Below, in pieces: positions 4,114 to 28,261 of a DNA stretch of 28,261 nucleotides. Positions within the stretch are counted from its first letter, which is position 1. Each line of letters starts with the position of its first letter. Location: the IMG/VR virus record IMGVR_UViG_3300028844_005976, positions 19,312 through 47,572 of that record; one strand, 5' to 3'. The translations under genes and the position numbers were made by a program. A model generated the notes under the pieces. That model saw only the letters and a list, made by a program, of their open reading frames with translations, was not told where the DNA came from and ran no database searches. Origin of the DNA: a virus.

Positions 4114-7100
4114 ATGGCAAAGCTAAAATACAATTACACTCAAGATAAACTGCAAGAAATTCAAGCGGCTGGTGATTCTAATGTAGGACTAAAGTTTAAT
4201 CCTATATCAATGGGTAGTGGAGGACCAGGTCACTTTGTTAGATTATCTGTTTTTGATAGTTCGGACAATTTTGTCCGAAGCTTTCTCACCAATGTATCCA
4301 ATGAGGGTGTACCGGTTATTTATGGATCAAATGCATCCACTCCCACTATTTATCAAAGTCCTCTTTCACCAGATGGTAAGCCAATACTTGCTGGAGTTGT
4401 ATCGGCGGGTGGTGTAACGGTTGATCCTGTAGGAACGTTATCAGCTATAAATTTTTGTAATGGGGAACAAGCCGATGTTGTTGATTCGCAACTTATAGCA
4501 TCTAATGCACAAATATTGGGTGGAGTGAATCAAATATCTTACTGGGATGATGGTTGGGTAGTAGAACAACGTGGTGTCATGATACCATCAGCAGTTTGGT
4601 CAAATATAACATGCATGAGTGTAGGAACAACCGACTATGAAGTCATAGGATCTCCTCAGTTAAACATCTACAGAACAATTAATGATGATAATGTAAATTT
4701 TTACTTTAAACCTACGGAAGCACTCTCATCAATAATTTTACCAACGGGAGATTATAGTCTACAGTTTGAGTTTTTGCGTAGCACGATAGACGTGCTTGCT
4801 AGTAGTATCGTCAATCCTAGATACATAATCAGAGAGATATCACCTAGCAGAAAAGAGATCCGGATAGGTCCTGGATCAGATGGACCAATACCTTTTGTTC
4901 TTAACAACTCAACGCAAGAGGGACAGTTAGGATTCCAACAAACATTTAAAAATTTACTAGAAAGTTCTTCTGATCCAACTGGGGTCTATAAATTTGATTA
5001 CGTGGTTGGACTACCTAAAGGTAGATCATTACCTGTAGTGAATTATGAATTTGATAATAGATCGAGCACATCTCCTACATTAATCATAAAGCTGGGTGAA
5101 GAATTACCCGCTGATATAGTGGTATTAAATCAGATCAGTATTGATCAACAAATTTTTACTACACAAACTGAACAAATATTTTACGAGTCTGATCTTCACA
5201 GAGAACAACAAACAGGAGCTGGCTTAGATGCACAACAATTTGGAGGCTTTTCTCAAGTAGAAGTAAGTGAGCAAATTAATAGTGTGGCTGAAGATCCTTT
5301 TCAAAGTGTAGCGGATCTTACTGGATCTTTGGTGGACACTTCAATATTAAGTTGGGTTAATTCTGGTAGTGGGTTTGGCGTTGATATTAACTTAAATATA
5401 AATTACAACGATTTTACAAATCACACCTTCTTTGGTTCAGCAGCATCAAAATTAGACAACTTTAAAAATAAACTAACTAATATAGAAAACCAATTGAGCA
5501 GGATAAGTCAGTCATTATCAAGTAGTTTTGTTAGTATGGATGGTGACTCAACATCACTAGTTAAATCAAGAAAAACTTCATTTGAAGAAATACAACGGAT
5601 CAAAGATACATTTACTCCATATGAAAGATTTTTATATTATGACTACCAAAGTAACAGCTCAGCATCAGCACCTGGTATAGGAGCTAATTTGGCTCACTCT
5701 AAACCAGTTACTGGTAGTTATACACAATTAACAAGTTATGGAGGATTCCCGCTAGTATACAAACATTCAGCTCCTGGAGCAGATGATGGCACTAGTGACT
5801 CACAACATAACGGCTTAGATTTGTTTAGAGGAAAATACAAAGCGGAAGACAAACCGTTCTTTAATTATAGTGGTTCATTATTTTTAAGTTTCTTATTAAA
5901 GGGTGATCATGATATAGGTGACTTCACGTTAGAAAATATTAACACGAGATATGATGAGTTTGAAAAGGGTAAATTACCCAATACAGCTTTAGGTAGTGGT
6001 TCTATTTTATCCGAGACGGTCACTGGCTCTGAATATAGACGATATATTTTTGAAGCTTCGCAATCTTTTTGGAGACCATATAGACAGCAACGACTAAACA
6101 TGTACAATTGGAATGATAATGCATGGAGTGACAATGTAGATTTTTATCAAATAGTATCTTCCTCAGAAGCACAGTCATCAGCATCTAACTCACCAAGTGC
6201 AAGCAATCCAGATTCATATGCTATTCAAGCTGCGGGTCAGTTTTACAAATCTATAGGTACTACATTCTTAACCGGTAGTACAGCATTATTTTCAGGATCG
6301 TTTATGCCTTCCGGTGAGCTGTTTAGAGTTTCAGCTTCCTTGAGAACAAGAGGAGGAGCCGTAGCTCCATCTGGTATAGCAGCTAACGTTACTTCATCGT
6401 TTATAACGGATGTAAGATTAACAACAAAAAATCCTATAGATGTGTATCCGTTTCATAGTATTTACAAAGTTAGTTCTACAGAATTTTCAAGTTGGTTTGA
6501 TGGTCTTAGAGCATCAGCATCAGCGTATGATGATAATAACATACACGCATTAGTCAACAATATACCAACAGCAATTAAAGAAGACTCTCAATCTACAGAG
6601 TTATTAAGTTTTATAAAATTAATGGGTGAGCAATATGATCTTCTAAGAAATTATATAGAAAATTTTGAGAAGCTATCGTCTAGATCCTATAACAGTCAAG
6701 ACGGCGTACCTCCTAACCTACTACCTATTTTAGGTAAGAATCTTGGTTGGGATTTCACTTCACCATTTACAGGTAGCTTATCTGAATACTTTGGTTCATC
6801 TCAAGAAAATATACGAGTGGGTGGTAGATCTGTAGAGGAAATAACTACTAATACGTGGCGTAAGATTCTAAACAATTTGGTACGAGTTTATAAAACAAAG
6901 GGTTCTGCAGCTAGTATATCTGCGCTATTGAATACTTATGGATATCCAGCGGATATTTTGACCGTGGCGGAGACGGGAGGTTCTTTAGAAGAACACAATC
7001 CTTCTATTATTTCTAATGATGTATCCACATTACTTTCTGGATTATCTGGTCAAGCTGATAACGTAAGTTTTATACAAACAACTGAAGAGTTCTTCTCATT

Positions 7101-15855: not shown

Positions 15856-16521
15856 GTGGATATAAACATAGCTACACTTGCAGGACATTTAGCATTTGGG
15901 CTAATAGCATTTTCTTTTCTTGTAAAGGATATATTATGGTTACGTCTACTCAGTATATTAGCAAGTCTATTCTCCGTTTTTTATAATTATTTTATTCCAG
16001 CTAATCCTATGTGGTTAGCTATAAACTGGAACATTATTTTTGTCTTGGTTAATGTATACCATGTAGCTGTCATAATATATGAAAAGAGATCAGTGGATAT
16101 GTCTCCCAAGTTTAAAGAATTGTATGAGACTATGTTTAAAGAACTCACTCCTGTAGAATTTTTAAAAATAACTAATGTTGCTAAATGGATAAAATATGAG
16201 ACTCCGGAACCAATTATAAAACAAAACAAACCAGTTAATGATTTAATTCTAATATACAATGGTACTGTAGATGTTATTGTGGACAGGAAGAAAGTAGCAG
16301 AATTAAAAGATGGTCAGTTTGTAGGAGAGATGTCATTTATCACAGAAAAACCAGCAACAGCTACGTGTGTAGTAAAACACAATACGGAGTGCTTAGTGTG
16401 GCCACAAGAAAGATTCAAGGATTTATTAAAACGTAATCCTTCATTATATTTTACAATACAATCGTTGCTAACTCAAGAAGTATCGAGTAAGTTAGTGACA
16501 TCAAGTAAGTCTAATGATTAA
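15856..16521 (+). CDS. Three-helix membrane protein with Popeye/CRP-like cyclic-nucleotide-binding domain
   Basis: 221 aa from a GTG start 5 nt after the preceding stop. Residues 1-75 form about three membrane helices (HLAFGLIAFSFLV, LLSILASLFSVFYNYF, LAINWNIIFVLVNVYHVAVI). Residues about 110-195 fold like a cNMP-binding domain: IYNGTVDVIVDRKKVAELKD and the phosphate-binding cassette GQFVGEMSFITEKPATATCV (153-172), then LVWPQERFKDLLKRNP. Three helices plus this domain is the architecture of Popeye (POPDC) proteins and their bacterial relatives. The Arg that grips the phosphate in CRP-type cassettes is replaced (PATAT instead of PRxAT), so any ligand may be non-canonical. It overlaps the next gene by 8 nt. 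A phage copy might tune host second-messenger or membrane behaviour. Confidence 0.75.
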   Translation: MDINIATLAGHLAFGLIAFSFLVKDILWLRLLSILASLFSVFYNYFIPANPMWLAINWNIIFVLVNVYHVAVIIYEKRSVDMSPKFKELYETMFKELTPVEFLKITNVAKWIKYETPEPIIKQNKPVNDLILIYNGTVDVIVDRKKVAELKDGQFVGEMSFITEKPATATCVVKHNTECLVWPQERFKDLLKRNPSLYFTIQSLLTQEVSSKLVTSSKSND

Positions 16522-17146
16522 GAAGATAAAAATTAATAGGAGTCCAAAGCCAAGCTGTGATAGAAAGTTAGCTGGTGAGTCTGATGCTCAGTGGAGAAAG
16601 CGATGTGGTCCAAGACCATTGGGATCCATAGGGATGGGTGAGAGTACAACGCGTAGTTCAAAGAAAGGGGCACCTGGAACACTCAAGGCTAAGATAAAAG
16701 GTCCCGTAACAATAGCAAAAGCAAAAGCTCTAAAAAATAGAAAAAATGCTACACCTCACGATAAAGCTCAAGCCAACTGGTTTATAAACATGCAACGTGG
16801 TAAGAAAAAAACCAACGAAGCTCTTGATTTAATTAGAGGCAACCTATGTATAGAGTGTGGATATCCAGTACATGAAGATTTAAAGAAATGGTTCAAACAA
16901 AAATGGGTAAACATAGGCAAGAAAGACAAATCGGGTAAACACCCAGAATGTGGAACTAGTGGAGAAAAGCGTGGCTATGCTAAATGTGTACCAGCATCAA
17001 AGGCTGCTGGGATGTCAAAAAAAGAAAAAGCGTCAGCGACCCGTAGGAAGAGGGCAGCTCAAAATAAAGCAGGTAGAGGTGGTAGAGGGAAACCGGGAAC
17101 TTGTTCCCAAGGTAAAAAACCAATAAAGGTGTCGACTGATGGCTGA
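16514..17146 (+). CDS. Highly basic Cys-containing protein with DUF5872-like region
   Basis: 210 aa, overlapping the previous gene by 8 nt and the next by 8 nt. It is Lys/Arg-rich throughout. Two cysteine-containing parts stand out: an N-terminal segment with C15 and C31 (DAQWRKRCGPRP) and a C-terminal segment, about 112-197, with CIECGYP, then LKKWFKQKWVNIGKKDKSG, HPECGTSGEKRGYAKCVPA and GKPGTC. The latter matches the DUF5872-type sequence (W.NIG..DK.G....CG......GY.KC.PA..A..MS) found in phages and large eukaryotic viruses. Zinc binding and nucleic-acid binding are plausible from composition, but no function is established here. It could be packaged with DNA, given the neighbours with capsid-targeting-like motifs. 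Confidence 0.7.
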   Translation: MIKKIKINRSPKPSCDRKLAGESDAQWRKRCGPRPLGSIGMGESTTRSSKKGAPGTLKAKIKGPVTIAKAKALKNRKNATPHDKAQANWFINMQRGKKKTNEALDLIRGNLCIECGYPVHEDLKKWFKQKWVNIGKKDKSGKHPECGTSGEKRGYAKCVPASKAAGMSKKEKASATRRKRAAQNKAGRGGRGKPGTCSQGKKPIKVSTDG

Positions 17147-18041
17147 TGAATATGTACTTCTACCAAGAGGAAAGACTAAAGTCTTACAGGCAGAGGATAA
17201 AAATTACAAACGAGGTTTGCTGGTCAGACTCAAGAAAGATGGTGGTTATAGAGTAGCATATTGGTACGAAGAACCTGATAAACCTAACGTCGTTGAAGTC
17301 TTGGTTGATGGTGAACGTATAAAAAAAGATGCTAGGGTGGTGGAATTTAAATTTCATCCACAAAATTATTATGAGGAGGACGATATAGTGGAAACTATAA
17401 ATGAAAAGATTACTTTATTTTTAGAGAAGAATGTTCCAACAGATGCTTCTAAGTGGTCATATTATAAATCACAGGCAAAGAAAAAATTTGATGTTTATCC
17501 ATCAGCATATGCAAATGGATGGGCAGCTAAGCAGTACAAAGCTGCAGGTGGTGGTTGGAAAAAATCTAAAACAGAAAATAAAGGTCTGTGGCATAATATA
17601 AATGCTAAAAAGAAGAGAGGTGAGAAATCATCTCCAAAGGGATCCAAAGCATATAAAGCAGCAAAAGCAGCTGGTGATAGACTCAATAGAAATGAAACCT
17701 ATACTAGCGAATACAATGTAGAGAATTACCACGATATAAAAGAGTTTGTTGAATTCATGACATCATATAAACCTGATATCAATGAAGCTGAGTACCAGGG
17801 AAGAAAGGTCAAACTTGGTAAACCAATGCAAGGTGATACAAAGAAATTTAAAGTATACGTAAAGAACCCAAAGGGTAATGTCGTAAAGGTAAACTTTGGA
17901 CAGGGTGGTGATGCTAAAGGCGGTACAATGAGAATTCGTAAAAATAATCCCAAGGCTCGAGCAAACTTTAGAGCTAGACATAATTGTGACTCACCAGGGC
18001 CAAGACATAAGGCTCGTTACTGGAGCTGTAGAAAATGGTAA
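17139..18041 (+). CDS. Basic phage protein with KKKFDVYPSAYANGWA motif and conserved Cys-Trp C-terminus
   Basis: 300 aa. The N-terminal part (1-95) is mixed beta (VLVDGERIKKDARVVEFKF). Residues about 105-142 carry WSYYKSQAKKKFDVYPSAYA and GWAAKQYKAAGGGW, a motif also seen in DUF5872-type viral proteins. The C-terminal part (about 212-300) runs INEAEYQGRKVKLGKPM ... KFKVYVKNPKGNVVKVNFG ... FRARHNCDSPGPRHKARYWS, ending CRKW; I recall this C-terminal block as widespread in marine myophage proteins of unknown role. The DINE/AEYQG step is a [IL]-x-E site of the type cut by prohead proteases of T4-like phages, so the C-terminal domain may be released in the head. Overlaps both neighbours by 7-8 nt. 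Confidence 0.72.
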   Translation: MADEYVLLPRGKTKVLQAEDKNYKRGLLVRLKKDGGYRVAYWYEEPDKPNVVEVLVDGERIKKDARVVEFKFHPQNYYEEDDIVETINEKITLFLEKNVPTDASKWSYYKSQAKKKFDVYPSAYANGWAAKQYKAAGGGWKKSKTENKGLWHNINAKKKRGEKSSPKGSKAYKAAKAAGDRLNRNETYTSEYNVENYHDIKEFVEFMTSYKPDINEAEYQGRKVKLGKPMQGDTKKFKVYVKNPKGNVVKVNFGQGGDAKGGTMRIRKNNPKARANFRARHNCDSPGPRHKARYWSCRKW

Positions 18042-18238
18042 AACTAAAAGACCTATTAAAAGAAGAAGAAGATGAAACCGCGCTTCCAATGATACAAGCA
18101 TTAAATGTATTGAGTGCTGATATCAGACGAGCAAACTATAAAAAACAATTAGAATATGGTAAAAAAAATTCCAAAGAGATGGCAGACATAATCAAAGCCG
18201 CTACCATGTTATCTAAAATTGTAAAGAGATTGAAGTGA
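18035..18238 (+). CDS. Small helical protein with N-terminal capsid-targeting-like motif MVKLKDLLKE
   Basis: 67 aa, overlapping the previous gene by 7 nt and the next by 4 nt (GTGA). The first ten residues, MVKLKDLLKE, are nearly the same as the start of the next two gene products and end in L-K-E, a [IL]-x-E site. The rest is predicted alpha-helical and basic (IRRANYKKQLEYGKKNSKEM ... KIVKRLK), like small DNA-binding or internal head proteins. I recognise no family. If the motif is a capsid-targeting peptide, the mature product would start at about residue 11 and be packaged in the head. Confidence 0.7.
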   Translation: MVKLKDLLKEEEDETALPMIQALNVLSADIRRANYKKQLEYGKKNSKEMADIIKAATMLSKIVKRLK

Positions 18239-18747
18239 TCAAACTAAAGGACTTACTAACAAAAAAAAAATCTCTAAAAGAAGAATTTACAAATAAAGAT
18301 TCTAATGAATATCGAGTAGAGCTTGTAGATCTCATAGGGAAGCCATCTTACGAAACCAGTGAGGAAGCTGGATGGATAGCACCAACGCTACCAAAAGAAT
18401 ATGGAACGTATACCATGAACATCACTAAAGTCGATAAGGTGTTCATTATAGATGAGTCAATACCTCACAGTTTTCCTGCAGATCATAGAGATTACGTATA
18501 TACACAATATGCAGTACCAGCTTGGCAGCAAAGCAAGGGTGCACATAATGTAGAGCCAGCTATGATCGCTGACTTTGCAAAGGTTACCGGATCTATAATC
18601 ATTGATCCATTGAAAGGCACTATCACAGCTCGTTGTGGAGATTTGGTGGCAAACGATAAAACTATACAGTTTGTCTTGGATGTTGTAGACGGAAAAGTTC
18701 AACCCACCAAAGAGGAATACTCTAATCGAATTTTAGATAAAAAATGA
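18235..18747 (+). CDS. Unknown 170-aa protein with N-terminal MIKLKDLL motif
   Basis: Starts at GTG 18235, overlapping the previous stop as GTGA and the next start as ATGA, so translation is coupled on both sides. The first eight residues MIKLKDLL repeat the start of the neighbours; the motif is followed by a lysine run and then SLKEEF, where L-K-E at 14-16 is a possible protease site. The remainder is an alpha/beta domain of about 150 residues (KVDKVFIIDESIPHSFPADH ... IIIDPLKGTITARCG ... IQFVLDVVDGKV) that I do not recognise. There is no signal peptide or membrane helix. Inferred to be co-packaged or co-expressed with the adjacent genes. Confidence 0.68.
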   Translation: MIKLKDLLTKKKSLKEEFTNKDSNEYRVELVDLIGKPSYETSEEAGWIAPTLPKEYGTYTMNITKVDKVFIIDESIPHSFPADHRDYVYTQYAVPAWQQSKGAHNVEPAMIADFAKVTGSIIIDPLKGTITARCGDLVANDKTIQFVLDVVDGKVQPTKEEYSNRILDKK

Positions 18748-19838
18748 TTAGACTTAGGGATCTAATTCTTGAAAATTGGTGGACTGATAAGAGCGTTGAT
18801 GGTCAAACCCAATACATAAGCTCACATCCCAAAACTCCTAAAAAAACAAACAAAGATAATCCATCTGGAAAAGAAGAGCGAGATGATAGCATTAACTGGA
18901 AAACGGGTAAAGATGGTTGGGAAATCCTAGACGACAAAAGAGCAAAGGTTACTAAGGTGAGAGATTATACGGAACAAGAATACCAAGAGGAGACCGATGA
19001 GTTTTTTGGTAATAGTGACTCTATCGCACCCGGTCTTGCAAAGTCCAGTAGTGAATTAGTATCGAAGATGAAAAATGCCCCCGTAAAATATTTTAGTTCT
19101 GAACAACTCCAAAACATGAATAATACAGACGTGGGTGAATTGCTAGATGCTTCCGATGATGGAGGAACAAATGCTATGTACAATCTTGGTAAGAAGAAGG
19201 CAAGTGAATATGGAAAGGATTGGAGTAGGTTGGAAAAGGGAATCAAAGATTTAGATAATAAAGAATCACTAGGAGTACCACCACCAATAGCTATCCAAGA
19301 TAAAAATAATGATTTACATTTAATGGCGGGTAACACTCGCATGATGTCCTTTACTGCAGCTGGTAAGAAATTACCACTCAAGGTTCTCAAATACAATGAT
19401 ACGTTTGATTATGATTCCTGGGACGTAAGAAATATAAAACAAGAAGGATTAATTAAACTTAAAGAGTTAATTGTTGAAAGAGTAGATTACATAGATACAG
19501 CCACTCGGTTAGTGAAAAAATATAAACTAAAATCTAAAGTAAAATTTAACTCTGGAACTAATCACGGAGACTATGACTGGGACACTGATATTATTTACAT
19601 TGACAAGTCCTTTTCATCGTTAAAAGAATTTTACATAACTGTATTGCATGAAATACATCATGCGGTACAACGAAAAAAAATGGGACCGGCTAAGTATGAA
19701 AAGAGATATACACAAGCGGGAAACATGGCGGTGAATAAAGGTCGGGACTTTTATAAAGATAATAAATACGAAACCAGAGCAGAAAATTGGGCTCAGAGCG
19801 AGTACAAGACACTGATCAGACGAGGAGAACTCAAATGA
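18744..19838 (+). CDS. Two-part protein: ParB-like domain and HEIHH zinc-metallopeptidase, each preceded by a capsid-targeting-like motif
   Basis: 364 aa; start ATG overlaps the previous stop (ATGA). Order of parts: MIRLRDLILE (1-10); a polar linker; a ParB/sulfiredoxin-like region at about 178-217 with the typical box LHLMAGNTRMMSFTAAG (191-207); a second motif LIKLKELIVE (236-245); and a zincin-like domain to the end, with HEIHH at 302-306 (two His plus Glu303 as catalytic base) and a candidate third ligand in AENWA (Glu347). The internal motif aligns with the N-terminal one at all ten positions with identities or conservative changes. This looks like two genes fused, or a precursor cut in the head at [IL]-x-E into two cargo proteins. 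Substrates of either domain are unknown. Confidence 0.75.
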   Translation: MIRLRDLILENWWTDKSVDGQTQYISSHPKTPKKTNKDNPSGKEERDDSINWKTGKDGWEILDDKRAKVTKVRDYTEQEYQEETDEFFGNSDSIAPGLAKSSSELVSKMKNAPVKYFSSEQLQNMNNTDVGELLDASDDGGTNAMYNLGKKKASEYGKDWSRLEKGIKDLDNKESLGVPPPIAIQDKNNDLHLMAGNTRMMSFTAAGKKLPLKVLKYNDTFDYDSWDVRNIKQEGLIKLKELIVERVDYIDTATRLVKKYKLKSKVKFNSGTNHGDYDWDTDIIYIDKSFSSLKEFYITVLHEIHHAVQRKKMGPAKYEKRYTQAGNMAVNKGRDFYKDNKYETRAENWAQSEYKTLIRRGELK

Positions 19839-20373: not shown

Positions 20374-20889
20374 ATGGTTTTAGGTTTAGACGCATCCACG
20401 AGCTGCGTAGGTTATAGTTTTACTAAAGGCTCCGATATTATAGAAATGGGCTTTATTGACATCATAAAAATTCGTGATATCAACGAGAAAGCTCTTTACG
20501 TATATGAAAAACTCTCCGAGAATCCACTCATACAAGAAATAGAATGTATGTATATAGAAGATTCGCTAAGTGGCTTTGCTAGAGGTCGCACTAGTATTCA
20601 GACAATTATCAAACTAGCTCAATTCAATGCAATTATTAGATTTATTTTTACATTTACAGCTACCATAAAAGTCATAGGAGTAAACCCCAACACAGCTAGA
20701 AAAGCTATCTTTGGAAAAGCTAGAGTGAAGGGTAAAACTTCAAAGCAATTTGTAAGGGATGAATTAGAAAAACGTTATGATATGACCAAGTGGATAAAAA
20801 TTAACAAAAAAGGAAACTTTGATCAAAAAAACCTTGACGCATATGATGCTACGGTAGTAAGTTTGTATCATAACTCAAACTCAAAGTAA
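20374..20889 (+). CDS. ruvC: RuvC-like Holliday junction resolvase
   Basis: 171 aa, with Shine-Dalgarno AGGA six bases before ATG 20374. The RNase H-like fold of RuvC is visible with all four catalytic acids: D6 in VLGLDASTS, E62 in YIEDSLSGF, and D155 and D158 in LDAYDAT, matching the D-E-D-D order and spacing of RuvC. The protein cuts four-way junctions that arise in recombination-dependent replication and must be removed before packaging. T4 uses endonuclease VII instead, so this phage has the RuvC type common in other phages and poxviruses. It is followed directly by the primase gene (stop TAA abuts ATG). Confidence 0.9.
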   Translation: MVLGLDASTSCVGYSFTKGSDIIEMGFIDIIKIRDINEKALYVYEKLSENPLIQEIECMYIEDSLSGFARGRTSIQTIIKLAQFNAIIRFIFTFTATIKVIGVNPNTARKAIFGKARVKGKTSKQFVRDELEKRYDMTKWIKINKKGNFDQKNLDAYDATVVSLYHNSNSK

Positions 20890-21810
20890 ATGGATACACA
20901 AAAGGTTTTAGATCTCATACAAAGGGGTATAGCATCACCGCGTTCTATTAAGAATGGTGAAGCTGTATTGTTTTGTCCAAACTGCTCGCATCGCAAGCCC
21001 AAGTTTCAAATAAACTTATCGTCTGGCAAGTCTCACTGTTGGGTATGTAATTTTTCTTCACATACACTAGCTCAACTTTTTAGAAAACTATCGGTTAATC
21101 CGGAACTGATAAAGGAAGCAGCATCTTTATCAGGTGATAGACTGAGAAAAGGTAGTAAACAAACTGATAACAAGTTATTGAGGTTACCAGCTGAATTCAC
21201 TCCACTGTGGGTACTTGCCTCGTCGCAAAGTTATCTACGTAAGCATGTAGTGACTTATCTCATGGAAAGAAATATTAGAATGGGTGATGTAATTAGATAT
21301 GGTATTGGGTACTGTGAAGAGGGTCCATATGCTAGAAGGGTTATAATACCAAGCTATAACAGCTCCGGTCAATTAAATTATTTTGTAGCCAGAGATGTGT
21401 TTCCTGATAGTAAAATGAAATACAAAAATCCACCAACATCAAAAAATGTTGTTATGTTTGAGTTATTAACGAATTGGAACGAACCTATAGTTTTGTGTGA
21501 AGGAGTTTTTGATGCAATAGCAATTAAAAAAAATGCAATACCATTGTTAGGTAAGTTTCCAAGTACTGAACTTATGAAGACTATGATAAGCAATAGAGTA
21601 AAGAGCGTATATTTAGCATTAGATAATGATGCTGTAGCTGATGGATATAAATTAGTAGACGAGTTTACTAAATTAGGCATCGAATGTAATTTTATAAAAT
21701 TAACAGATCAAGATCCTTCAGATATGGGGTTTAAAAAATTTTGGGAAACTGCTCTTGACAGCAAGCCTACAAGTTTTTCTGATATGATTAGAGGAAGATT
21801 ATATGTCTAG
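20890..21810 (+). CDS. DnaG-type DNA primase (zinc finger plus TOPRIM), no helicase domain
   Basis: 306 aa. A CHC2-like zinc finger is at residues 29-53 (FCPNCS ... HCWVCNF; Cys 29, 32, 50, 53). The catalytic TOPRIM domain follows: VLCEGVFDAIAI with Glu204, YLALDNDA with Asp245 and Asp247, and DPSDMG near 275-280. Length and content fit the single-domain phage primase role (T4 gp61), which makes RNA primers for lagging-strand synthesis with a separate helicase; no helicase lies in this window. The gene starts right at the stop of the resolvase gene and overlaps the nuclease-ATPase gene by 8 nt, so replication and recombination proteins are made together. Confidence 0.9.
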   Translation: MDTQKVLDLIQRGIASPRSIKNGEAVLFCPNCSHRKPKFQINLSSGKSHCWVCNFSSHTLAQLFRKLSVNPELIKEAASLSGDRLRKGSKQTDNKLLRLPAEFTPLWVLASSQSYLRKHVVTYLMERNIRMGDVIRYGIGYCEEGPYARRVIIPSYNSSGQLNYFVARDVFPDSKMKYKNPPTSKNVVMFELLTNWNEPIVLCEGVFDAIAIKKNAIPLLGKFPSTELMKTMISNRVKSVYLALDNDAVADGYKLVDEFTKLGIECNFIKLTDQDPSDMGFKKFWETALDSKPTSFSDMIRGRLYV

Positions 21811-24800
21811 AGAGATAAAAACTATAGCTCACCTGAGCGACATTCACATTAGAAAACTGCATAGACTAAAAGAATATAGAGAAGTATTTGATCGTTTGTA
21901 TGTAAAACTTAAAGAGATTAAGCCCGATTTGATATACTTGGGAGGTGACATAGTTCATGGAAAATTAGATACGTCTCCAGAGGAAACTCGACTGGTTTCA
22001 GACTTCTTACTAAATTTATGTAGTATAACGGATACTATCTTGATTACCGGTAATCATGACATGAATATACAAAATAAAGGAAGAGAGGACGCTCTATCTC
22101 CAATAGTAGATCTTGTACGACAAATTAATCCAAAGCTGCATTACTGGAAGGCTTCAGGTAAATATTCTATAGGTAATGTAGACTTTAGCTTGCTGAGTGT
22201 ATACGATATAGACAAGGATGGCAATCAATCTTTGGATAATTTTGTACCAGCAAGTGCTATTAATAACAAACATAAGATAGCTCTCCATCATGGACCCGTA
22301 GATAGTTTTGAGGTCGATAATGGCTTTACAATGAAAAACGATAGAGTACGGGTTGGGTTATTTGATGGCTTTGATATAACAATGTTAGGTGACATACACA
22401 AGAGACAGTTTTTAAATGAGGAAGAGACTATAGCATACTGTGGAAGTTTAATTCAACAGGGTTTTGCAGAAGAACCATCAAAAGGCTTTCTATTATGGAA
22501 TGTAGAAGATAAAACTTCAAAATTTATTCAAGTTGAAAATGATTATGGATATAAAACAATAATTGTGAAAGATGGTGTAATAGAAAATAAAATGAGGTTC
22601 GTTCCTCCAAAAGGTAACATCCGAATAAAATATTGGAATACGACGTATAAACAACTCCAATCAATACAAATCAAACTTAGAAAAAAATATAGATCCGTAA
22701 AAGAAATCAAAGCGGAAAAGCAAGATGTGTTGTCTAAAACTGGACAATCTGTTAATAGAATTGATATAGGCGACGTTCGTGACATGAAGTTTCAAAATAC
22801 TTTATTGCGTGAATATCTTCAAAATACTGTAGAAAATATGGACCCTAGTACTTTGGAGAGAATCATTAATATTAACGAACAACACAACAACGTTCCAGAG
22901 ATCCAAAATGACGGTATGGCTCGTCATGTTAATTGGAAGCTAAAAGAATTTTACTTTGATAATATGTTTAGCTATGCAAAAGACAACCACGTACGGTTTG
23001 ATAAGCTCAAGGGTATAGTAGGATTAGTTGCTCCAAACCATAGCGGTAAGTCTTCTTTGTTAGACGCGGTTTCATATACTATATTTGATCTATGTAGTAG
23101 AACTACCAGAGCTATTGACGTACTGAATAAAAAGAAAAGTTCTTTTTTATCTAAACTAAATATTGAAGTAAATGGTAATGATTATTGGATAGAACGAATA
23201 GGTACCAAGAGGACTCGTAGACATAAAAATAATGAAACTACTACAACGTGTCCTGTAAAAGTAGATTTTTATATGTATGATGATGCAAATGAAAAGGTGG
23301 ATCTTACTGGAGCAGCTAGACGCAATTCACAATATGGAGGAGGTACTAACGAGGAAATACAAAGTGTTATAGGTAATTTTGATGATTTTATTTTAACTTC
23401 ATTGTCGTTACAACAAAACGGTACTAATTTTTTAGAAAAGAAACAATCAGAACGTAAACAGATTTTATCAAAATTTATGGATGTTGGTATCTTTGATAAA
23501 TTATATGATTTGGCACGTGAGTCTTCTAATGAAGATCGAGCATTGCTCAGAAGCTTAACAAAGCGAGACAGCTATACGGAATTAGCTACTGTGGATGAAA
23601 GAGTATCCAAGTTAATGAGTGAAGAGCAAATTGTTAAGGATACGTTAGATAAATTAATTAAAGAAGAAACTAATTTATCTGAAGAAAAAATGACTCTAGT
23701 GAAGAAAAAGTGGAACATTCAAAACGGTGATCTTGATATAGAAAATCTACAATCTAATTTTAAAAAAGTTGAATCTACGCTCCAAGATACAATAAATACA
23801 CTTGATGATGATACTTCTTATAAAGAAAAATTACGTCCTCTCTATCTACAATATCACTCAAAACTAAATGTTTTAGATGAAGATGATATACGATCTAGAT
23901 ATACAAAATTCACAAAGAATAAGCACACAATACAATCGTTACAAAATGAATTACAGAGCCTAACAAGAGAAAGAAAATCAATTAGTCATTCTATGAGGGA
24001 ACTGAATAAATACAAATATGATAAAGAATGTCCACTATGCTTGGGTAATGCAGATGAACACATAAAACATCAAACGGAATATAATAAAAAACATAAGGAA
24101 CTCACAAATAAGATAGACTCATCTACAGATGCTATTGAGGTGTTGGAAGAATCATTGATACAATTAGCAAGTGCAGAGGAGCAGGATAAACTTTATCACG
24201 GTCTAATAGACGAACTCAATAGAATAAGTCAGGATGCTATAAAGGTTGGTGGTAAGATAACAACAGCTACAGAAAAAGTAAAATTACACAAAGAAGAGCT
24301 GAAGAGATTACAAAACCAAATAGATCAGTATTATGACAATGAGGCTAAAATTAATACTAATAAGGACATAGATTCTCAAATATTAATTGTAGAGCAGGGA
24401 ATCAACCAAGTCGATAAGGATAAAAATATACAACAGGATTTGCACAGAAGTGTGTTGAATAAATTAGCAGTAGCAAAAACTAATAAAGAGCAGTTAGAAG
24501 AAACAATTAAGCAAATTTCAAGTTTAGAACAACGAATATTGGATTATGATATATACATGTCTGCTATGTCCAGAGATGGTATATCATACGATCTAATAGG
24601 GAAAACTGTAGAATCTATAGAAGCAGAAATCAATGAAGTGTTAAACAATATGATGGTGGGATTCACTATAAAGTTGTTAATGGATGGAAAAAATATAGAT
24701 ACTTTCATATGTTATGGAGATGATATGTGGTCTTTAGATCTAGCTTCTGGAATGGAAAAATTTGTGAGTAACTTAGCTATTAGAGTGGGACTCATAAACG

Positions 24801-25018
24801 TATCAACACTTCCCAGACCTAATTTTTTGTGTATAGATGAGGGGTTTGGTACACTGGATGGAGAGTCTATAGTAAACATGGAGGGGGCTTTCAACTATTT
24901 GAAAACACAATTTGATTTTGTCCTAATTATTACCCACTTGGATTCAATTAAAGATTATGTAGACCACTTGATACCTATAGACGTTATCAACGGATACAGT
25001 AATATTAAATTTTCGTAG
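21803..25018 (+). CDS. sbcDC: Fused Mre11-like nuclease and Rad50-like ATPase (T4 gp47-gp46 / SbcD-SbcC equivalent)
   Basis: One uninterrupted 1071-aa frame. The N-terminal third is the calcineurin-like phosphoesterase Mre11/SbcD: SDIHI (D13, H15), LGGDIVHG (D49), ITGNHD (83-86), LHHGPV (161-166) and GDIHKR (196-201). From about residue 378 comes the Rad50/SbcC part: Walker A APNHSGKSS (S414-S417), long coiled coils on both sides of a zinc hook CPLC (743-746), signature LDLASGMEKF (978-987), Walker B LCIDEG (D1012, E1013) and H-loop ITHLDS (H1045). The complex resects DNA ends to start recombination-dependent replication. In T4 the two are separate adjacent genes in the order 47-46; here that order is kept within one chain. 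The Walker A loop has His where Gly is usual (PNH for xNG). Confidence 0.93.
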   Translation: MSREIKTIAHLSDIHIRKLHRLKEYREVFDRLYVKLKEIKPDLIYLGGDIVHGKLDTSPEETRLVSDFLLNLCSITDTILITGNHDMNIQNKGREDALSPIVDLVRQINPKLHYWKASGKYSIGNVDFSLLSVYDIDKDGNQSLDNFVPASAINNKHKIALHHGPVDSFEVDNGFTMKNDRVRVGLFDGFDITMLGDIHKRQFLNEEETIAYCGSLIQQGFAEEPSKGFLLWNVEDKTSKFIQVENDYGYKTIIVKDGVIENKMRFVPPKGNIRIKYWNTTYKQLQSIQIKLRKKYRSVKEIKAEKQDVLSKTGQSVNRIDIGDVRDMKFQNTLLREYLQNTVENMDPSTLERIININEQHNNVPEIQNDGMARHVNWKLKEFYFDNMFSYAKDNHVRFDKLKGIVGLVAPNHSGKSSLLDAVSYTIFDLCSRTTRAIDVLNKKKSSFLSKLNIEVNGNDYWIERIGTKRTRRHKNNETTTTCPVKVDFYMYDDANEKVDLTGAARRNSQYGGGTNEEIQSVIGNFDDFILTSLSLQQNGTNFLEKKQSERKQILSKFMDVGIFDKLYDLARESSNEDRALLRSLTKRDSYTELATVDERVSKLMSEEQIVKDTLDKLIKEETNLSEEKMTLVKKKWNIQNGDLDIENLQSNFKKVESTLQDTINTLDDDTSYKEKLRPLYLQYHSKLNVLDEDDIRSRYTKFTKNKHTIQSLQNELQSLTRERKSISHSMRELNKYKYDKECPLCLGNADEHIKHQTEYNKKHKELTNKIDSSTDAIEVLEESLIQLASAEEQDKLYHGLIDELNRISQDAIKVGGKITTATEKVKLHKEELKRLQNQIDQYYDNEAKINTNKDIDSQILIVEQGINQVDKDKNIQQDLHRSVLNKLAVAKTNKEQLEETIKQISSLEQRILDYDIYMSAMSRDGISYDLIGKTVESIEAEINEVLNNMMVGFTIKLLMDGKNIDTFICYGDDMWSLDLASGMEKFVSNLAIRVGLINVSTLPRPNFLCIDEGFGTLDGESIVNMEGAFNYLKTQFDFVLIITHLDSIKDYVDHLIPIDVINGYSNIKFS

Positions 25019-25264: not shown

Positions 25265-28261
25265 ATGGCATATCCTCCACAATTTGGTGGAACTACACCT
25301 GAATCGCAAGACCCAAATAGATTGTATAGTAATGTTTACAATTTAGATCAATTAGACGTTCTGGTCGAAGACAATCCATCCAATCCACAATTCTTTAGTG
25401 TAGTTGGTTTACCTCAACAGCTTTCGTATGGAAAGACGTACTTCACTATAGCATTTAACGATCCCGAGGGATCTCCATACAGACTTCGTGAAGGGTCAGG
25501 TTTACTATTTGAATTTAAAGATGCTGGAGGTATAGTTGTATTTAGCGATCTCACTACTTACGAGGATGTAAATGGTGCAGCCGTTGCTTATGTATGGATT
25601 AAGAAAGATCCACTGAGAACTTTTGATGAGTTAGAAGAGGGTAGAGGATCACTTACTATTGTTGGTGAATTAGAAAACGTATCTCCTCAATACCAAAATG
25701 TATATAACGTAAGACTCACTGTTCCTATTGATATACGAACTGATCTTCCCAACAATACTCCAATATTATTTCAAAGCTCATCTAGAATTCAAGAATCACT
25801 AGTTATATCAGAAAGTGTAGAATTTGATGCTAATAGCGAAACGTATAAGAGGAGTATTCTAAACGTAAGTGCCTCAAACCTAGACACGTTTGGAGGCCAA
25901 GTAAAATTTTTAGAACTAAGTTACAATGAGAATGAATCAAGTGCAGATCAGTTTAGATTTTTAACGGAATACGAAATAAGTGGTTCTGGAGAAGAGTTTG
26001 AGATAAGTAGTAGTGCATCCACAGGACTTAACCCAGTAAGTAATTTTTATAAAATGCCAATGCCCAGGGAGGTCAGGCGAGGTTCTAATATAGTATTTAG
26101 GTTGAGATTTAAGAATGGATCAGGACAAGTAGCCCAAGATCCTAGCATAGGACAAGACGTCATACTTAGTGCAAGTGCAACTTTTCAAGGTACACCTCTA
26201 GTCATAGAAAAAGATGATAACTTAATGACGGGTTCTGTAAGTGTTGGAACGGGAGTAGGTAAGGGCTTTAAAATGTCAGGAGAATCTTCCGCATATATAG
26301 CTTCTGCAGATTATAGAGGATTTACTAGTGCTTCTGCGGGATCCGGATCGGGCATTATTTTATTCAGCGGATCAGTATTTGGAGATATCACTGACGATTA
26401 TCAAAATGGAGGTGTTGGTTTTGAAGTGGTGTCGGATAGCAGCAGCTTTTTACGATTTAGGTCAAACCCATCAGAATTAGATATACGCGCTGATGCATTC
26501 TTTGTAGGTTCTACAGCAACACAATTTATAAGTGCATCTACGGGAATCATAGAAATATCATCGAGCAAATTTCATCTAGAGCCGGACGGTGATGTCACAC
26601 TAGCAGGTACCATAACAGCCGAAGCTGGTTCAATTGGTGGATTCCTAATAGAAGAAGGTAAACTTACGGCTGGTACAAATAACAGTGCCATGACGATGAG
26701 TGGTGCGGATAGATTGTTGAGATTTGGAAGTGGTTCGAGCTTTTCTACTGATAATGTCGATGGTATTCTTATAGGACAGGATAGTGATGGAGTTTACAAA
26801 TTTGCAGTGGGTCAACCTAATTCTTACATAGTATTTGACGGACAAACGGTAAGTATTAAATCTGACGATCTAGTAGTAACGGCTTCTAACTTTACCATTG
26901 ATTCAAATGAATTTAAGTTGGCTACTAGCACGGTATTTATCAGTAGTAGTGGAGTGGGAGAAATAGGTCTAGGTAGTCCTATCCCAACCGGAATATCTGC
27001 AGCAGGTAACAAAGGATTTTTTGTTGATGGTAACGGAAATGTTCTAATAGGAAATTCTACAGCCTCACGTATACAATTTGACGGTACGGATCTTACACTG
27101 AGCTCATCTAAATTTTATTTGGGATCTGTATCTCAGTACATTAGTGGAGCACTTGGTAACATAGAGATAAGTTCTTCTAATTTTCACCTAGACAACACAG
27201 GCAATGTTACCTTGGCAGGTACCGTAACCGCCAATGCAGGAACTTTAGGTGGTTTTGATATCTCACAAGATGCGATAACATCTACAAATTTTTTTATTAG
27301 TGGTGCCGCTACAGACAATGAATATTTTATTTCTGCATCCAGTGGACCTTCACAGTTTTTCAACGTTAGAGCTTCTGGAGACGTAACTGCTTCCAGTTTA
27401 TTATTAACAGGAGGTCAGGTAGCTGGTAATACTGTCACACGGGACAGAATATCTTTTGAAAAAAACTGGGCTATATCAGCTTCCGATAACCCAGTAGAAT
27501 ATTTTATTAGTGCTTCAAGGTTTCAAGTATCTCAACAAGGTGATGTTACGGGATCCCAAGTATTATTTACGGGTGGTGATATTGGTGGAGCTACTATAGA
27601 TGAAAATAGTTTTGCCTTTGGAGACATATCTAAAATATCAGCCTCATCAAATCCAGTAGAAATATTTATTTCTTCCTCACGGTTTAAAGTTAAGCATGAT
27701 GGTCAAGTAACAGGTAGCGAGTTTCTTTTTGGAGATAAAGCTGGAGGTAACTTTGCACAATTCACAGGTGATACTTTAACCGTTGAAGGTGACATTTCCG
27801 TAAACTCTATTAAATCTCCAGCTCAAATAGCTGGAGCTGCAGCAACAAATGAAAATGCTTCTGCATCTATATCAGCAGGAGGACACGCTACATTCAAATC
27901 CGCTTCTATAGGAGGATTTGTAGTAAATCCAATATCTATACAAGATTCTAATAGCAATCTCGTATTAAACGCATCTGGTCAGATAACGGCATCAGCAGTC
28001 TCAATGTCAGGAACTGTAACAGCTACATCTGGACAGATAGGTGGCTTTGCAATAGGTAACGACCTCTCATCTAACGCCGGTACGTTAAATCTCAAAGGAG
28101 CAAGTGGACAAATAACAGCTTCAGCCGTTAGCATGTCGGGAACAATTACAGCTACATCCGGACGGATAGGTGGATTTGCAATAGCAAACGATTTATCTTC
28201 AAATCTTGGCACGCTAAAACTTAAAGGAGCTAGCGGACAAATCACAGCTTCTAATGCTCTA
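25265..28261 (+). CDS. Long tail-fibre-like protein with IGGF repeats, 3'-truncated by the window edge
   Basis: Starts at ATG 25265 with AGGA five bases upstream and stays open for 999 codons to the window end. The N-terminus (MAYPPQFGGTTPESQDPNR) is followed by a beta-rich region, then from about residue 430 a Ser/Ala/Gly-rich repetitive shaft. Units such as FHLEPDGDVTLAGTITAEAG and FHLDNTGNVTLAGTVTANAG lead into an I/L-G-G-F step; IGGF or LGGF occurs at nt 26633, 27245, 27908, 28037 and 28166. Such repeats build trimeric fibre shafts in phages of this type. The gene follows the replication genes and faces the small regulator, away from the other tail genes upstream. The receptor-binding tip would be beyond the window. 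Confidence 0.85.
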   Translation, partial: MAYPPQFGGTTPESQDPNRLYSNVYNLDQLDVLVEDNPSNPQFFSVVGLPQQLSYGKTYFTIAFNDPEGSPYRLREGSGLLFEFKDAGGIVVFSDLTTYEDVNGAAVAYVWIKKDPLRTFDELEEGRGSLTIVGELENVSPQYQNVYNVRLTVPIDIRTDLPNNTPILFQSSSRIQESLVISESVEFDANSETYKRSILNVSASNLDTFGGQVKFLELSYNENESSADQFRFLTEYEISGSGEEFEISSSASTGLNPVSNFYKMPMPREVRRGSNIVFRLRFKNGSGQVAQDPSIGQDVILSASATFQGTPLVIEKDDNLMTGSVSVGTGVGKGFKMSGESSAYIASADYRGFTSASAGSGSGIILFSGSVFGDITDDYQNGGVGFEVVSDSSSFLRFRSNPSELDIRADAFFVGSTATQFISASTGIIEISSSKFHLEPDGDVTLAGTITAEAGSIGGFLIEEGKLTAGTNNSAMTMSGADRLLRFGSGSSFSTDNVDGILIGQDSDGVYKFAVGQPNSYIVFDGQTVSIKSDDLVVTASNFTIDSNEFKLATSTVFISSSGVGEIGLGSPIPTGISAAGNKGFFVDGNGNVLIGNSTASRIQFDGTDLTLSSSKFYLGSVSQYISGALGNIEISSSNFHLDNTGNVTLAGTVTANAGTLGGFDISQDAITSTNFFISGAATDNEYFISASSGPSQFFNVRASGDVTASSLLLTGGQVAGNTVTRDRISFEKNWAISASDNPVEYFISASRFQVSQQGDVTGSQVLFTGGDIGGATIDENSFAFGDISKISASSNPVEIFISSSRFKVKHDGQVTGSEFLFGDKAGGNFAQFTGDTLTVEGDISVNSIKSPAQIAGAAATNENASASISAGGHATFKSASIGGFVVNPISIQDSNSNLVLNASGQITASAVSMSGTVTATSGQIGGFAIGNDLSSNAGTLNLKGASGQITASAVSMSGTITATSGRIGGFAIANDLSSNLGTLKLKGASGQITASNAL
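27842..28261 (+). repeat. In-frame tandem repeats, 129 bp (43 residues), in the fibre shaft
   Basis: Units begin at 27842 (diverged), 27971, 28100 and 28229 (cut by the window end). The units at 27971 and 28100 differ at only 5 of 43 residues; both carry SGQITASAVSMSGT and SG[QR]IGGFAI. The spacing of IGGF is exactly 129 nt between 27908, 28037 and 28166. Synonymous differences are frequent between the two close copies, so they are not a very recent duplication at DNA level. Confidence 0.85.

Follow-up and report, generated by a model that had tools for sequence, protein, structure and literature searches.

Why does one phage protein carry the same ten-residue motif twice, once at its N-terminus and once in its interior? 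The protein, P0001, is encoded in the window, by which we mean the whole stretch of DNA analyzed here, 28,261 nucleotides of an IMG/VR virus record (IMGVR_UViG_3300028844_005976, positions 19,312–47,572). A sequence-only reading of this DNA had held that a second copy is hard to explain unless two targeted proteins were fused or the precursor is processed, and had suggested a head-delivered polyprotein giving a ParB-like protein and a zinc peptidase. The features of the locus are collected in Table 1.

Table 1. Features of P0001 and of its surroundings (positions in the window)
Feature	Position	Strand	Basis
Neighbor gene starting MVKLKDLLKE, same N-terminal motif class	18035..18238	+	ORF translation
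Neighbor gene starting (GTG) MIKLKDLLTKKK, motif without Glu at position 10	18235..18747	+	ORF translation
P0001, two-module candidate cargo precursor (ParB-like half and zincin half)	18744..19838	+	ATG start, 364 aa
N-terminal capsid-targeting-like MIRLRDLILE, residues 1–10	18744..18773	+	candidate cut after Glu10
WWTDKS..Q..Y...HP short module, residues 11–30	18774..18833	+	recurs in relatives
ParB/sulfiredoxin-like domain, residues 50–217, AGNTR at 195–199	18891..19394	+	homologs, confident model
Low-confidence linker, residues 218–235	19395..19448	+	pLDDT below 50 at residues 227–236
Internal copy LIKLKELIVE, residues 236–245	19449..19478	+	fusion joint, candidate cut after Glu245
Zincin (gluzincin-like) metallopeptidase module, residues 246–364	19479..19835	+	model, structural neighbors
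HEIHH zinc-binding/catalytic motif, residues 302–306	19647..19661	+	H-E-I-x-H invariant in alignment A4
Glu343, likely third zinc ligand	19770..19772	+	invariant in A4; on C-terminal helix of model
RuvC-like, primase and gp46/47-like genes, marking synteny downstream of the zincin gene	20374..25018	+

The interior of P0001 holds a second copy of its N-terminal motif

The two copies show identity or conservative change at all positions past residue 1, which is Met in one and Leu in the other. Compared to a self-score of 41, the internal and N-terminal 9-mers reach a BLOSUM62 score of 28; none of 5000 shuffles of the P0001 interior reached this value, the mean best score being 11.9 and the maximum 27. 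Translation, score and shuffles together confirmed the second copy that had been noticed by eye. In its strict form the motif is internal in only one of 959 ORFs (at least 120 aa, related loci), that of P0001. The loose rule (hydrophobic residues at 4, 7 and 8, Glu at 10) is unspecific by itself, because one more internal window of P0001, residues 294–303, also satisfies it. Codon 236 is TTA; the internal copy is therefore not a normal translation start, and internal initiation at this codon was ruled out. The internal copy resembles the starts of standalone zincin genes, for example MIKLKSLLVERIDY in L296.

The motif class is typical of protein N-termini. We scanned IMG/VR with a DNA pattern for I-K-(L/F)-K-(D/E)-(L/F)-hydrophobic-x-E, and 77 of the 87 in-frame matches were located at gene starts, upstream of many unrelated proteins, the position expected of a capsid-targeting sequence; in L142 and L178, exact IKLKELIVER opens an unrelated gene. 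T4 IPII and IPIII start with MKTYQEFIAE, which has hydrophobic residues 4, 7 and 8 and Glu10 in common with both P0001 copies. In T4 IPIII, targeting is governed by residues 4 and 7 and processing by residues 8 and 10, and Asp10 prevents processing (PMC9026906); both P0001 copies possess hydrophobic residues at 4 and 7 as well as the processing residues 8 and Glu10. Judged from these residues, the motif is likely to target P0001 to the head. T4 gp21 (S77) cleaves after L/I-x-E, and the candidate cut positions of P0001, ILE10 and IVE245, both fit. The residue after Glu245 is Arg, whereas Ala follows the T4 IPII and IPIII sites; in the relatives, N-terminal copies of the motif are followed by many different residues, Arg and Lys among them.

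A protein of L070 starting at 4786 contains internal YSSWLVDQILLTE (residues ∼395–408) before the GG module described below. It resembles the N-terminal MNELSQYLVNQLLLEE of L013, and YSSWLVDQILLTE appears to be a further, almost complete internal copy of an N-terminal signal specific to its lineage.

The internal copy lies between two folded modules

In the model of full-length P0001, confidence is high for residues 50–217 and for most of the zincin part, and pLDDT is below 50 at residues 1–45 and most of 227–240. From this low confidence against the confident flanks, the internal motif is placed between the domains. The proposal of two targeted parts would have suffered had residues 236–245 been an integral strand or helix of one continuous domain; they form a low-confidence stretch belonging to neither core.

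The ParB-like domain is 57–58% identical to the corresponding domain in giant proteins of L001, L002, L013 and others, and its Arg199 is near-invariant. Its matches to Srx, ParB and Osa structures are modest, with Z-scores of at most 4.8, and no Pfam ParB model matches the first half at E ≤ 0.1. The label ParB-like given to this half is reasonable, the likeness to ParB/sulfiredoxin proteins being weak. The WWTDKS module directly follows the N-terminal motif in P0001 and in L122 (MIKLKQLINE↓D, the arrow marking the candidate cut), and in L043 and L067 a module of this type (WWxDxS..HP) comes directly after an internal LITE↓D site. There are 44 distinct copies, preceded mostly by [LIV]xE[DN]; by its distribution, the WWTDKS...HP stretch is itself a mobile module, a point that the sequence-only reading had not made.

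The full-length alignment A3 misplaced the zincin rows, and the separate alignments A4 and A5 were folded instead. The zincin model (seven sequences) has a pLDDT of 88.9, with the core mostly above 90. It contains, in order, a helix, three strands and C-terminal helices; HExxH, a Glu on a later helix and three strands flanked by helices, the features of a zincin, are all found in the C-terminal half of P0001. His302, Glu303, His306 and Glu343 are invariant among the zincin relatives. The best structural neighbors are PprI/IrrE (Z-score of 8.4, 3.7 Å over 93 residues); ArdC, an antirestriction protein, is listed too (Z-score of 6.8, 3.5 Å over 90 residues). MPTase-PolyVal (PF18818) matches seven of seven zincin members at E ≤ 0.05, the P0001 zincin staying under the curated cut-off (22.3 versus 27.5 bits). 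Foldseek against the PDB gave no match below E 0.001 for either P0001 model. The metallopeptidase label that had been read from HEIHH is reasonable given the zincin-like structure, and structure prediction of residues 246–364, proposed earlier as a check on the fold and on the third zinc ligand, returned a zincin-like fold with Glu343 as the likely ligand. The conservation of Glu-Arg-x-Asp at the zincin start could have structural reasons, since in the model a single helix passes through it.

Both halves occur as separate genes

A first scan of viral contigs with a single zincin sequence gave no match; relatives were found through a DNA motif scan and through the alignment built on its finds. 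The 59 distinct zincin modules comprise 18 standalone genes and 41 modules located behind other sequence; the fusion partners include NUDIX and nucleotidyltransferase-like modules. Single-linkage clustering of the N-terminal partners lumped nearly all of them through shared modules. The standalone genes start with MIKLKxLLxE↓RxD, for example MIKLKDLLKE↓RIDYQDTA and MIKLKSLLVE↓RIDYEDTA. The sequence-only reading had proposed to look for a separate second half starting with MIKLKELI, and separate zincin genes were found, beginning MIKLK(D/N/S/H)LLxE. The ParB-like half stands alone in L117 and L183, and standalone ParB-type genes begin with MIELKKILFE or MIKLKELISE. In L201, a ParB-type gene (start MIKLKELISE) and a zincin-containing gene share an 8-nt overlap, an arrangement that looks one step short of fusion.

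Because the halves occur separately, each starting with the motif, P0001 nearly certainly arose by the joining of two genes, both of which had a targeting motif of their own. Since zincin and ParB-type genes stand alone, we further regard the boundary between the halves as a fusion joint that retains a site of the T4 gp21 type, L/I-x-E↓. The suggestion of fused targeted proteins and/or a processed precursor is thus supported by the separate genes.

Fusion and separation of the zincin module have happened repeatedly. Parsimony on the zincin tree gives at least 11 changes between the alone and fused states, 4 of them forced by starred branches; the tree has few columns and its deep forks are uncertain. 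By path on this tree, the row nearest to P0001 is a standalone gene. The exact ParB and zincin fusion was seen once, and the same zincin module is fused to other partners in dozens of contigs, with a near-complete internal motif also in the fusions of L299, L306, L313 and L154. Loss of the internal motif in homologs that keep the flanking domains had been named as evidence against a targeted fusion, and the outcome is divided: the amphipathic Lys/Leu part is gone in most other fusions, whereas the terminal hydrophobic-x-Glu is kept in all, with Glu at P1 and Leu, Ile, Val or Met at P3 in 59 of 59 zincin modules. Searching the 'phages' collection with tblastn gave no match for whole P0001, either half or a standalone zincin, and no cultured relative was found.

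Motif-bearing genes adjoin a prohead protease gene in a related record

Six of 16 related records, among them those of L130 and L117, encode a prohead protease of family PF03420, against none of 14 control genomes; the protease gene of the L130 record is at G002:C1:15569-16021. At L371, in the record of L130, four MIKLK genes are located between a gp21-type prohead protease gene and a scaffold-like gene. No prohead protease was found in the window's own record G000, a 47.6 kb fragment without head genes. Downstream of P0001, a cassette of RuvC-like, primase and gp46/47-like genes marks the synteny, and a similar primase/gp46-47 cassette follows the zincin gene in L128, L130, L131 and L150.

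Three further frames of the window, all on the plus strand, were observed. The multi-module-looking neighbor at 17139–18041 contains DINE↓AEYQGRKVKLG, with I-x-E before a stretch ending in RARHNCDSPGPRHKARYWSCRKW, which is found again in neighbors of L130 and L222. The gene at 15856–16518 encodes a cyclic-nucleotide-binding domain protein (Pfam POPDC1-3, E 3e-16; cNMP_binding, E 6e-16) with hydrophobic N-terminal segments, which is unusual in a phage. The frame at 25265–28261 is 999 aa in length and is open at the 3′ end of the window; it contains a repeat at 28004–28251 with a period of 129, and its product is probably a tail fibre-like protein.

Proposed cleavage sites at module borders

From these comparisons, we consider it probable that P0001 is a head-targeted cargo punctuated by prohead-protease sites, fused from two T4-type internal-head (ejection) proteins, and as such a T4-type form of the polyvalent proteins. 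One ancestor would be a ParB/sulfiredoxin-like protein and the other a small zinc peptidase, both with an N-terminal capsid-targeting sequence. Through the first copy the precursor would reach the prohead core; the second would be the former N-terminus of the zincin gene, surviving, as we propose, mainly because its final L/I-x-E is a recognition site of a gp21-type prohead protease. As the head matures, this protease would cut behind Glu10 and Glu245, and a ParB-like protein of ∼235 residues and a zincin of ∼119 residues would be packaged separately and injected with the DNA. We infer that P0001 is located in the head, is indeed cut and acts inside the host; by analogy with polyvalent proteins (PMC5512222), its products likely serve counter-defence or host takeover.

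This design of modules with L/I-x-E↓ between them would be scaled up in the giant relatives of the ParB-like domain, which are 1094–1968 aa in size and contain NMN-adenylyltransferase-like, DUF5661 and other modules. Like polyvalent proteins, P0001 (ParB-like and zincin) and these relatives combine dissimilar domains in a single polypeptide. Unweighted homology breakpoints were noisy, and supported breakpoints from 65 non-redundant proteins were used instead, with the GG border left out and with residue and spacing controls. At module borders [LI]xE is enriched 3.9-fold and hxE 2.9-fold, compared to ∼1.6-fold for hE, hxxE and hxxxE; hxD, at 0.8-fold, shows no enrichment. Leaving out the GG-module border did not abolish the enrichment, which in residue and in spacing matches the specificity of gp21.

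Of the 75 distinct borders before the GGAxGHMxHPFD (GG) module, 60 have [LI]-x-E and the other 15, exceptions to the rule, have Met or Cys at P1 instead of Glu (LLLM, LLLC). The Met/Cys borders were observed in L052, L064, L077, L079–L081, L083, L086, L095, L097, L102, L104 and others; cleavage may either have been lost there or its site moved. As a second exception, several giant proteins have no site directly after the ParB module. Around KLGESINEDIT, L014/L015 differ from L024 by a whole module inserted between ESINE and ESVNE, the proteins being otherwise very similar; here the gain or loss of a module at sites of this kind is seen directly.

The zincin half might cut its own linker, the internal motif being substrate or relic, and Iyer et al. 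proposed autoproteolysis for P1 DdrB, a ParB and MPTase protein processed before packaging to a 76 kDa form (PMC5512222). We regard this as unlikely for P0001. Most multi-module relatives are without HExxH, yet 72 of 89 such proteins keep h-x-E directly before the GG module; the zincin is therefore not required for the border pattern, and self-cleavage was rejected as a general explanation. The border rule also fits the specificity of gp21, including the rejection of Asp. Improbable to a similar degree is that P0001 is packaged and injected uncut, with the internal motif as a decaying, functionless leftover of the fusion. The N4 virion RNA polymerase is packaged unprocessed, and only some fusions keep the near-complete internal motif; however, a pure relic should decay, whereas hydrophobic-x-Glu persists in every zincin module despite repeated fusion, and the borders of unrelated modules are enriched for [LI]xE.

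We give little credence to the reading that the motif is the first helix of its domains, or an amphipathic helix binding membrane or protein, and no head signal. Lys and Leu make the motif amphipathic, and in the zincin model a single helix runs from before the internal motif into the domain. However, model confidence is low in the motif and above 90 in the domain, the motif opens many proteins with unrelated downstream sequence, it is freely replaced in fusions except for its last part, and motif genes adjoin the prohead protease gene. Chance resemblance or an assembly error is scarcely credible even with the exact fusion seen once, for the shuffles never reached the match, the module has other partners in dozens of contigs, and a single sequencing error is insufficient because TTA differs from ATG at two positions and the frame stays open across the ∼18-residue linker.

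Comparison with known systems and significance

If P0001 is cargo punctuated by prohead-protease sites, its closest parallels are T4 IPII, IPIII and Alt, substrates of gp21 (Peptidase_S77), which are alike in the ten-residue motif and the L/I-x-E↓ site; an S77 protease is encoded in records related to that of P0001. T4 Alt also has a second, C-terminal gp21 site (LTE-619). Different from P0001, in which a second copy or candidate site lies between two folded modules, the T4 proteins compared carry the targeting sequence at the N-terminus only. The relatives of P0001 also chain many modules, unlike the T4 internal proteins.

The polyvalent proteins are the other close parallel, P1 DdrB above all. 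P1 DdrB, like P0001, combines an N-terminal ParB-like part and a C-terminal MPTase-like zincin in one multi-module polypeptide. Iyer et al. (2017) likened polyvalent proteins to RNA-virus polyproteins freed by embedded peptidases (PMC5512222); release of the P0001 products is predicted to occur in trans, by a head protease at L/I-x-E, and not through an embedded peptidase. Compared to P1 DdrB, the first half of P0001 lacks a Pfam ParB match, and the head system of the P0001 lineage is of the T4 type and not of the P1 type. In SPN3US and phiKZ, several head and ejection proteins are cut by a gp21-related protease (PMC5694885, PMC10052503); these cuts remove propeptides, whereas the predicted cut in P0001 would part two functional modules. 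We found no description of prohead-protease-punctuated polyvalent proteins in the non-subscription literature searched.

We lean slightly towards a broader statement: that environmental T4-like phages, as a widespread group, carry a head-delivered polyprotein cargo in which prohead-protease sites that descend from targeting sequences divide the modules, the modules being exchanged, fused and unfused there and one protease both maturing the capsid and releasing a multi-enzyme payload. If so, fusion at a cleavage site already in place would let polyvalent proteins grow and shrink, and the head protease would release the parts in trans. L/I-x-E borders and MIKLKxLLxE starts would then predict the head-carried, injected proteins of uncultured T4-like phages together with their cut pieces. 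The pattern points to many candidate injected enzymes, among them ParB-like, zincin, NUDIX and nucleotidyltransferase modules, and it suggests how multi-enzyme cargo might be loaded into phage heads by a natural route.
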